Shown: one piece after another, positions 42,405-44,541 of the stretch
How positions within the stretch are numbered: the stretch's first letter is position 1
Layout: each line of letters starts with the position of its first letter
From: Actinomycetota bacterium
Lineage (GTDB): Bacteria; Actinomycetota; Actinomycetes; Nanopelagicales; Nanopelagicaceae
Direction: 5' to 3'
Length of the DNA stretch: 54,750 nt
Assembly (NCBI GenBank): GCA_009700025.1
Contig: WLMW01000003.1
Location: forward strand, 1-54,750
The notes under the pieces: model-generated
Seen by the model: only the letters and a program-made list of their open reading frames with translations
What the model was told of the DNA's origin: nothing
Databases searched by the model: none
Made by a program: the position numbers and the translations under genes

Positions 42405-42980
42405 TTAGCTCCCTGGGACTGCATCAGGGCTTATCACTGCTTGAGCCACCGCCTTCATACTCATGCGACGATCCATCGCCGCCCTTTGAATCCAAGAAAA
42501 TGCTTCGGGCTCTGACAAGTTTAAAGCCTTCATTAAAATTCCTTTGGCCCTATCAATAATCTTCCGAGTCTCAAGGCGCTCATGAAGATCAGCGACCTCA
42601 TCGGCCAAGGATCGCATCTGCTGATGCCGGCTGATAGCAATCTCGATGGCTGGAACTAAATCACCAATAGTGAAGGGCTTGACTACGTAGGCCATCACAC
42701 CAGCATCCCGAGCTCTATCAATTAACTCTTTTTGTGAAAAAGCGGTCAACATCAAGACCGGAGCCAAATCAATAATTTTTTCAGCTGCAGAAATTCCATC
42801 CATAACTGGCATCTTGACATCGAGTATTGCCAGATCGGGAGAATGAAGATGCGCTAAGTCAATCGCTTCTTGTCCATTCGTTGCTTCTGCAACAACTTCA
42901 TATCCAGCATCTTGCAACATTTCTACAAGATCCATACGAATCAATGCCTCGTCTTCGGCAACAAGAATGCGAATAGTCAT
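42405..42980 (-). CDS. ANTAR-domain response regulator (PdtaR-like)
   Basis: This 191-residue protein has an N-terminal receiver domain with acidic pocket VAEDEAL, phosphorylated D54 in LAILDVKMPVMDG, T/S in MLTAFSQ and K in YVVKPF, then a coiled linker and a C-terminal ANTAR domain (about 131-187, DRAKGILMKALNLSEPEAF and a following helix). ANTAR domains bind paired RNA hairpins and prevent transcription termination. It matches PdtaR of mycobacteria, whose kinase PdtaS is coded elsewhere. It lies 34 bases after a tRNA gene and close to pyk, as in other actinobacteria. The start used is the second codon (ATG at 42980) of a frame opening with TTG. Confidence 0.93.
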   Translation of the reverse strand: MTIRILVAEDEALIRMDLVEMLQDAGYEVVAEATNGQEAIDLAHLHSPDLAILDVKMPVMDGISAAEKIIDLAPVLMLTAFSQKELIDRARDAGVMAYVVKPFTIGDLVPAIEIAISRHQQMRSLADEVADLHERLETRKIIDRAKGILMKALNLSEPEAFSWIQRAAMDRRMSMKAVAQAVISPDAVPGS

Positions 42981-43014
42981 CAAAGAATCATCCCTTCAGG
43001 ATGTGAAACTAACG

Positions 43015-43087
43015 TGCCCCGAGTCGGATTCGAACCGACACTATGCAGTGTTTGAGACTGCCCTCTCTACCGTTGGAGTACCGAGGC
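43015..43087 (-). tRNA. tRNA with CAA anticodon (Leu by anticodon, class I fold)
   Basis: The minus strand folds as a 73-base tRNA. The acceptor is GCCTCGG / TCGGGGC with two G-U pairs and A73, and the D arm is CTCC-AACGGTAG-AGAG with one C-A mismatch. The anticodon stem is GCAGT / ACTGC around the loop CTCAAAC, the variable loop is ATAGT, and the T arm is GTCGG-TTCGAAT-CCGAC. The anticodon CAA reads UUG leucine. The variable loop has only five bases, whereas normal bacterial tRNA-Leu has a long arm (class II). No CCA is encoded. It sits 14 bases after pyk and 34 before the ANTAR regulator. Confidence 0.85.
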
Positions 43088-43101: not shown

Positions 43102-44541
43102 TTAGCGGTAGGCAGGGGCTACGCCGCCAACGGCATCGCCCACGCGGTGAACGCGCATTGCATTAGTTGAGCCAGGTATTCCTGGAGGAGATCCTGCAAC
43201 AATCATCACGTTATCTCCGATATCTGCTCGACCAGAGTCGATTAAAACTGTATCGACCAACTTCACCATCTCATCGGTTGCCCCAACGATGGGAGTAAGC
43301 ATCGATTCGACTCCCCATGAAAGAGATAAACGATTGTATGTTCCGCGCTCAGGGGTCATCGCAAGAATTGGAATAGGAGAGCGTAGTCGTGACATGCGGC
43401 GTGCCGAGTCACCGCTTTGTGTGAATGCAACCAAGTACTTAGCGTCCACGATTGCACCGACCTCTGTCGCCGCTTTTGTAATAGCCCCACCCTTAGTGCG
43501 AGGGGCGGTTCGAATAGGGCGGATTCGATCGAGACCACCCTCCTCCGTCTTTTGAATTATTCGCGCCATAGTTTGCACAGCCTCAATCGGAAACTCACCA
43601 ATACTTGTCTCGCCCGAGAGCATTAATGCATCTGCCCCATCAATGACGGCATTGGCGCAGTCTGTAGCCTCTGCTCGCGTTGGACGTGAGTTAGAAATCA
43701 TTGAATCAAGCATCTGTGTTGCAACAATCACCGGCTTTGCCATATCGCGCGCTAGTTCGACGCAGAGTTTTTGTACAAGAGGCACATCTTCTATGGGGAG
43801 TTCAACACCTAAATCACCACGAGCAACCATGATGCCATCAAAGGCATCGACGATTTCAGCGATATTTGCAACGGCTTGGGGCTTTTCAATCTTGGCAATT
43901 ACTGGAATGCGGATACCTTCTTCATCCATAATCGCATGAACATCTTTAATATCGGCGGCGTTTCGAACAAATGAGAGTGCGATGAAATCAGCACCTGCCC
44001 TAAGTCCCCAACGTAGATCTTCAATGTCTTTTTCAGACATGGCAGGAACAGAGACGGCAACCCCTGGAAGGTTTATTCCTTTGTTATTGCTTACAGCCCC
44101 TGGCTCGATGACCTTAGTAATCACATCGTTACCCTTAACTTCTAGGACCTGCACCGTTACTTTTCCATCATCGATCAATATGTGATCACCGGCCTTGCAA
44201 TCTCCTGGTAGTCCCTTGTACGTGGTACCAACACGATCTTTTGTTCCACCAACTTCATCGGTAGTAATAGTAAAAATATCTCCCCGCGCTAATTCGTGTG
44301 GGCCGTCAACAAATCTAGCCAGACGTATTTTTGGCCCTTGTAAGTCCACAAGGATTGCAACGGGACGCCCTGCTTCTTTGGCTGCAGCACGAACCTGATC
44401 TAATCGTCCTTGGTGCTCTTCATAGGATCCATGAGAGAGGTTAAGTCGTGCCATATTCATTCCAGCAGCGATAAGCTCTTTAACTTTATCGGCAGATTCA
44501 ACGGCAGGACCCATCGTGCAAACAATCTTCGCTCTTCGCAT
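43102..44541 (-). CDS. pyk: Pyruvate kinase
   Basis: This 479-residue enzyme makes pyruvate and ATP from phosphoenolpyruvate, the final glycolytic step. Motifs are TMGPAVESADKVKEL, MARLNLSHGSYEEH, the lysine segment VIAKIEKPQAVANI and metal-binding IMVARGDLGVELP, with the C-terminal allosteric domain complete. AAGG lies seven bases before the ATG, nine bases after gltD, so it is probably in the gltBD transcript. Confidence 0.97.
   Translation of the reverse strand: MRRAKIVCTMGPAVESADKVKELIAAGMNMARLNLSHGSYEEHQGRLDQVRAAAKEAGRPVAILVDLQGPKIRLARFVDGPHELARGDIFTITTDEVGGTKDRVGTTYKGLPGDCKAGDHILIDDGKVTVQVLEVKGNDVITKVIEPGAVSNNKGINLPGVAVSVPAMSEKDIEDLRWGLRAGADFIALSFVRNAADIKDVHAIMDEEGIRIPVIAKIEKPQAVANIAEIVDAFDGIMVARGDLGVELPIEDVPLVQKLCVELARDMAKPVIVATQMLDSMISNSRPTRAEATDCANAVIDGADALMLSGETSIGEFPIEAVQTMARIIQKTEEGGLDRIRPIRTAPRTKGGAITKAATEVGAIVDAKYLVAFTQSGDSARRMSRLRSPIPILAMTPERGTYNRLSLSWGVESMLTPIVGATDEMVKLVDTVLIDSGRADIGDNVMIVAGSPPGIPGSTNAMRVHRVGDAVGGVAPAYR

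Follow-up and report, generated by a model that had tools for sequence, protein, structure and literature searches.

Textbook bacterial tRNA-Leu is a class II tRNA with a long variable arm. The E. coli leucyl-tRNA synthetase (LeuRS) requires A73, A15-U48, G18G19 and A20a and can dispense with the variable arm, and human mitochondrial tRNA-Leu(UUR) has no long arm at all (PMC9976931). The mitochondrial tRNA, whose identity is established via A73 and A14 (PMC9976931), resembles the one described here in being a leucine tRNA without a long variable arm, but it is organellar and is served by a dedicated mt-LeuRS, whereas ours is bacterial, forms a fully paired cloverleaf and coexists with class II tRNA-Leu in its cell. 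A bacterial parallel is a short-variable-loop tRNA-Leu(UAG), mentioned in passing in a description of horizontally acquired mycobacterial tRNA clusters (PMC6582537). It is likewise class I, but it is an extra, probably phage-derived gene beside a normal class II isoacceptor, whereas the gene here is the sole one for CAA and its locus is conserved. Streptomyces phage Alone3 also has an annotated class I tRNA-Leu(CAA), 74 nt long and 81.5% identical over 65 nt, although in phages such genes are part of accessory tRNA arrays rather than single chromosomal genes. For the endonuclease discussed below, the nearest precedents are free-standing homing endonucleases such as SegB of phage T4, whose genes lie beside tRNA genes and for which break repair co-converts neighbouring DNA (PMC2988022, PMC13096335). 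SegB, however, is a GIY-YIG enzyme of a phage and is encoded in accessory tRNA clusters, whereas here a LAGLIDADG protein with a helix-turn-helix is found on bacterial chromosomes next to a single-copy tRNA gene whose alleles are of different structural class. In the open-access literature we found no report of a chromosomal class-swapping tRNA-Leu/endonuclease system, and only passing or phage cases of class I bacterial tRNA-Leu or of tRNA-linked LAGLIDADG genes in actinobacteria; such absences are weak evidence.

The window, the whole 54,750-nucleotide stretch that we analyzed, comes from a member of the Nanopelagicaceae (contig WLMW01000003.1). The features of interest are as follows.

43015..43087, minus strand: class I tRNA-Leu(CAA), 73 nt, CCA not encoded (ARAGORN; Rfam RF00005, 52.1 bits; covariation)
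43052..43054, minus strand: anticodon CAA, positions 34-36 (placed by the ARAGORN anticodon position 34)
43040..43044, minus strand: 5-nt variable loop AUAGU (44-48), U48 pairing with A15 (Levitt pair; A:U/G:C covariation in the family)
43102..44541, minus strand: pyk (pyruvate kinase), an ORF on the same strand as the tRNA, 60% identical to pyk of the Streptomyces-like L071 and named from homology
42405..42980, minus strand: pdtaR (receiver plus ANTAR regulator), an ORF supported by alignment, with tRNA-Leu(CAA) as its neighbour in 90/90 loci
42989..43003, minus strand: weak terminator-like hairpin between the tRNA and pdtaR, at chance level (2 found versus 1.8 expected)

An earlier sequence-only reading had described a class I tRNA of 73 bases with a CAA anticodon and a five-base variable loop, placed between pyk and an ANTAR regulator gene. 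ARAGORN, Rfam and our own direct reading agree with that description, and the location is also right: the pyk stop codon lies 14 nt upstream of the tRNA and the pdtaR ATG 34 nt downstream, with all three genes on the minus strand, which the earlier reading left unstated. This arrangement offers no space for an endonuclease gene between pyk, the tRNA and pdtaR. ARAGORN's minus-strand call at 43014-43087 is tRNA-Leu(CAA), and the Rfam tRNA model RF00005, the sole Rfam hit in the window, covers 43015-43087 on the minus strand from end to end (E 2.2e-8). Read along the minus strand from 43087 to 43015, the RNA is GCCUCGG UA CUC CAACGGUAGA GAG G GCAGU CUCAAAC ACUGC AUAGU GUCGG UUCGAAU CCGAC UCGGGGC A. 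It forms a full cloverleaf: the acceptor, anticodon and T stems are completely paired, the D stem consists of three pairs plus a C13·A22 mismatch, and the anticodon loop CUCAAAC comprises 7 nt on a 5-bp stem, an unambiguous setting that rules out a mis-set anticodon.

The gene is identical or nearly so (96-100%) in 32 of the 37 genomes of the genus that were searched, the window's own included and one truncated by a contig end among the copies counted. Across 29 distinct 73-nt orthologues, 99.7% of pair cells hold standard pairs (79% in the shuffled control), and in 15 of the 21 pairs both positions vary; the tertiary 15:48 pair is among these, with A:U in 18 sequences and G:C in 11. The covariation score for the cloverleaf is 0.592, compared with 0.195 after shuffling (0/500). 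From this covariation and conservation across orthologues, selection maintains the RNA as a class I tRNA, and it is neither a chance fold nor a pseudogene. Of the two outcomes that the sequence-only reading had thought would undo its proposal, a longer variable arm is absent, with none concealed among the class I orthologues, and an unconserved pseudogene is out of keeping with so strongly conserved a gene. With its 5-nt variable loop the RNA lacks the long arm of canonical class II tRNA-Leu, yet its decoding and its core assign it to tRNA-Leu.

That core is distinctive. The window tRNA has A73 and the leucine determinants of the D/T hinge (A15:U48, G18G19 and A20a), and among the class I tRNAs of Ca. 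Planktophila lacus and the window genome, the combination of A73, A15:U48, a 13·22 mismatch and A20a-G21 occurs only in leucine tRNAs. A73, U8:A14 and a paired 15:48 (54 A:U, 11 G:C) are common to all 65 distinct class I CAA sequences that we compared, and 63 of them have C13·A22. We would expect LeuRS to recognize A73 together with the D/T-loop hinge (U8:A14, A15:U48, G18G19, A20a and the unpaired 13·22), with no need of a long variable arm.

The window's genome assembly is a 1.38 Mb MAG that is 85% complete, and its LeuRS is broken across two contig ends, so the statements that this is the only CAA tRNA and that there is one LeuRS hold for a relative rather than for this genome. Our tRNA inventories combined an Rfam search with retrieved genomic regions. 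For Ca. Planktophila lacus, which belongs to the same family and has a complete genome, the full inventory holds 41 tRNAs, and in its leucine set CAA and UAA are class I, GAG and UAG class II. The orthologue of the window tRNA is the sole CAA tRNA there: neither a second CAA tRNA of any kind nor the separate class II tRNA-Leu(CAA) that the earlier reading had suggested looking for elsewhere is present, which rules out an additional class II CAA gene in this relative. The window genome itself also encodes a class I tRNA-Leu(UAA) (L021:1501-1576, equivalent to G000:C22:14174-14246) alongside class II tRNA-Leu for UAG and GAG. UUG supplies 65 of the 401 leucine codons in nine window genes, and where conserved columns coincide with UUG, distant actinobacteria have leucine in 16/20, much like UUA (14/18); reassignment of the UUG codon is ruled out by these columns. 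A second or unusual LeuRS is likewise ruled out: 16 named genomes each have one LeuRS above the cutoff, whichever tRNA class occupies the locus, with the window genome's own hit split at contig ends. Both genomes also contain low-scoring odd tRNA-like genes (L033:680-754 in the window genome; L196, L189 and L199 in P. lacus), one without a clear anticodon and the others called Val(AAC), Val(GAC) and Gly(ACC).

Because the orthologue is the sole CAA tRNA, UUG reads leucine and the leucine core is conserved, we consider it very probable that the window gene specifies a functional class I tRNA-Leu(CAA) with UUG as the cognate codon that it decodes, and this bears out the suggestion of a special leucine isoacceptor: a class I RNA with a leucine anticodon. 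Charging with leucine would then be by the organism's ordinary LeuRS. The sequence-only reading had also entertained charging by another enzyme or a non-decoding job, for example as a tRNA-like regulator linked to pdtaR, and the missing class II arm and the adjacent ANTAR regulator gene do lend themselves to that idea. Against it stand the sole-CAA status of the orthologue in a complete relative, the frequent use of UUG as a leucine codon, the conserved leucine determinants, the class I form of another leucine tRNA (UAA) and the presence of class II tRNA-Leu(CAA) in the same slot in sister taxa (described below), and we regard an RNA that is not leucylated as very improbable.

The pyk-pdtaR interval is the usual chromosomal slot of the tRNA-Leu(CAA) gene in Actinomycetia. 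A PdtaR profile search gave 80 named loci from GTDB genomes, and in all 80 a tRNA-Leu(CAA) gene lies beside pdtaR. The tRNA at this position is class I (74-77 nt as called) in Nanopelagicales, Gordonia, Demequina and many Streptomyces and Kitasatospora, and class II (83-88 nt) in other Streptomyces, Arthrobacter, Rothia, Kocuria and Ruania; with ten more loci, which were picked via a class I tRNA, the total is 90, 64 class I and 26 class II. The suggestion in the sequence-only reading that short CAA tRNAs occur at the same locus in other actinobacteria thus proved correct, both at pdtaR loci and in genome-wide patterns. L125, the lineage that neighbours Nanopelagicales on the flank tree, has the same order gltD, pyk, tRNA, pdtaR in the same orientation, and its tRNA-Leu(CAA) is class II; since order and orientation are identical, a class change near the window's lineage occurred in place.

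We extended the comparison to 247 genomes of the class, each at least 90% complete except the window's own. By sequence pattern, a class I CAA tRNA occurs in 151 of these, a class II one in 58 and neither in 38, and the two never occur together (0/247 genomes versus 35 expected; hypergeometric P about 5e-31, relatedness ignored). Class I UAA patterns are found in 105 of the 247, never in the Streptomyces-like genus, and class I leucine patterns are found in other classes of the phylum too. Most sampled Actinomycetia thus carry, by pattern, a class I tRNA for UUG, against the textbook class II, and for this reason the LeuRS of these organisms should work without the arm, which makes it a directly testable case for tRNA identity rules. 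In one family (f20; L241-L243), the CAA tRNA can be class I with the acceptor GGCCCGG and a D arm unlike the main class I type.

Within Streptomyces, tRNA class is almost random relative to the flanking genes. On a tree of the flanking proteins, class needs at least 19 changes, 13 of them forced by well-supported branches, compared with 22.7 for shuffled labels; branches within Streptomyces have moderate support, and recombination may have affected the flank tree as well. Where sisters carry opposite classes, as L141 and L154 (Streptomyces canus) do, their upstream flanks agree at 87-100%; identity then falls, for the most part to 30-70%, over the stretch that runs from about 70 nt before the tRNA to about 600 nt past it, and recovers beyond. 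Discordant sisters in Streptomyces differ only in this cassette, which spans the promoter region, the tRNA and, in an adjacent LAGLIDADG endonuclease gene (HEG), the N-terminal half. Flank identity is equal (88.2%) in 81 class-discordant and 82 concordant pairs, whereas tRNA identity is 60% in the former and 85% in the latter; in the discordant pairs, the N-terminal half of the HEG is 41.5% identical and the C-terminal half still 75%. In one species pair, the CAA tRNA is 56% identical, whereas seven of eight other tRNAs are 97-100% identical and the eighth, Ser(UGA), 91%. These comparisons show that class I and class II tRNA-Leu(CAA) replace one another as cassettes at the pdtaR slot.

The sequence-only reading, which was confined to the window, had missed the class I tRNA-Leu(UAA) of the same genome, the repeated class flips at the locus and the link to the HEG elsewhere. 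In Streptomyces the HEG lies 49-110 nt downstream of the tRNA, and its N-terminal half is inside the replaced tract. Its product of about 255 aa has an N-terminal helix-turn-helix and two LAGLIDADG motifs, LYLGDG (D77) and GLIHSDG (D178), whose aspartates are invariant in 23 sequences. The match to Pfam LAGLIDADG_3 is just under the cutoff, and AlphaFold predicts a LAGLIDADG fold with a pLDDT of 88, for which the best PDB match is I-Tsp061I (2dch, E 6.4e-8), with I-AniI and I-DmoI also found. By these motifs and this predicted fold, the family would be a LAGLIDADG homing endonuclease, with cleavage as its predicted activity.

The HEG is present, in some cases degraded, in 32 of 47 Streptomycetaceae loci, with either tRNA class, and in 53 of the 247 genomes, spread over nine families. 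In 52 of those 53 it adjoins a tRNA-Leu gene, in two orientations; the neighbour is a CAA tRNA of either class in 48 and a UAG tRNA in four. The latter are four genomes of one Mycobacterium-like genus (L245-L248), in which the HEG stands head-to-head with a class II tRNA-Leu(UAG). The N-terminal half of the HEG tracks tRNA class (8 changes versus 21.5 shuffled, 0/500), whereas the C-terminal half shows no such link (19 changes, 84/500). Some copies are tandem, split or truncated, as expected of a homing life cycle; in L249 and L250, two tandem LAGLIDADG genes follow a single class I tRNA-Leu(CAA). Plasmid-borne spread was ruled out, as neither the tRNA nor the HEG has a match in plasmids, and a phage-borne HEG likewise, as none was found in phages. 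We looked at L203, L204 and L205 for a tRNA-HEG intermediate; instead, at roughly 1.4-10 kb from the full tRNA-Leu(CAA) gene, they contain a second, incomplete copy of it (1953-1982 in L203), and these partial repeats suggest the ends of integration islands that use the tRNA 3′ end.

From the cassette replacement, the tract boundaries and the link to the HEG, we infer a form of intronless homing: at HEG-bearing loci, the swaps are most likely, though by no means certainly, driven by the free-standing LAGLIDADG protein, with the essential tRNA gene co-converted when a double-strand break is repaired. The enzyme would cut an allele of the tRNA locus that lacks the HEG or carries the other class, repair from incoming donor DNA would copy HEG and tRNA together, and the other-class tRNA would then resist cutting. 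This part of the model does not apply directly to the window's lineage: its genome has no HEG, and its family is unrepresented among the 53 HEG-positive genomes of the 247 searched. Since the family is without the HEG, we tentatively read the window's class I form as a fixed relic, left by an earlier replacement event of this type, a reading to which we give somewhat less than an even chance. An equally tentative extension is a "home-and-rescue" element, in which the HEG cuts the resident tRNA-Leu(CAA) locus and the same tract supplies an uncuttable, structurally different tRNA-Leu; class I might then have arisen or spread as a cut-proof rescue allele, and the window tRNA might be what an arms race has left fixed in streamlined freshwater actinobacteria. 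Repeated swapping of a single-copy tRNA gene next to a HEG, with hardly any regard to phylogeny, would amount to a naturally occurring system that resembles a gene drive and targets the translation apparatus encoded on bacterial chromosomes.

The swaps could also reflect ordinary horizontal gene replacement, in which homologous recombination uses the conserved flanks and the HEG is a passenger for which the tRNA gene is a safe insertion site. Loci of both classes exist without the HEG (15 of 47 in Streptomycetaceae), and the classes differ also between lineages with no detected HEG, such as Demequina and Ruania, for which reason homing may not be the sole route. Moreover, a tract that ends at the first available homology, in the C-terminal half of the HEG, is what any recombination would give, and with that conserved half as the nearest homology, plain linkage could explain the association of the N-terminal half with tRNA class. 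What argues for homing over such a passenger is the extreme swap rate at this one tRNA in the species pair above, the position of the HEG beside tRNA-Leu in nearly every genome that has it, in two orientations and nine families, and the tracking of tRNA class by its N-terminal and not its C-terminal half; we consider the passenger explanation unlikely, with perhaps a minor share of the probability. Less likely still is that class I forms are phage-derived and were selected for escaping enzymes that cut class II leucine tRNAs, such as toxins or phage defence nucleases. Streptomyces phages Alone3 and LuckySocke do carry class I tRNA-Leu(CAA), the best phage match at 81.5%, in Alone3 with a class I tRNA-Leu(UAG) adjoining it, an Mtb VapC toxin cleaves tRNA-Leu(CAG) (PMC6459853), and known defences cleave tRNA variable loops (PMC13096335). 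This explanation fits poorly, however, with the many swaps that leave class II forms still common and with the class II form of the UAG and GAG tRNAs seen here, and the window shows no sign of a nuclease. Near its two class I leucine tRNAs, phage Alone3 also encodes a 74-nt tRNA-Ser(GCU) (L278:2816-2889), which is short for a serine tRNA.
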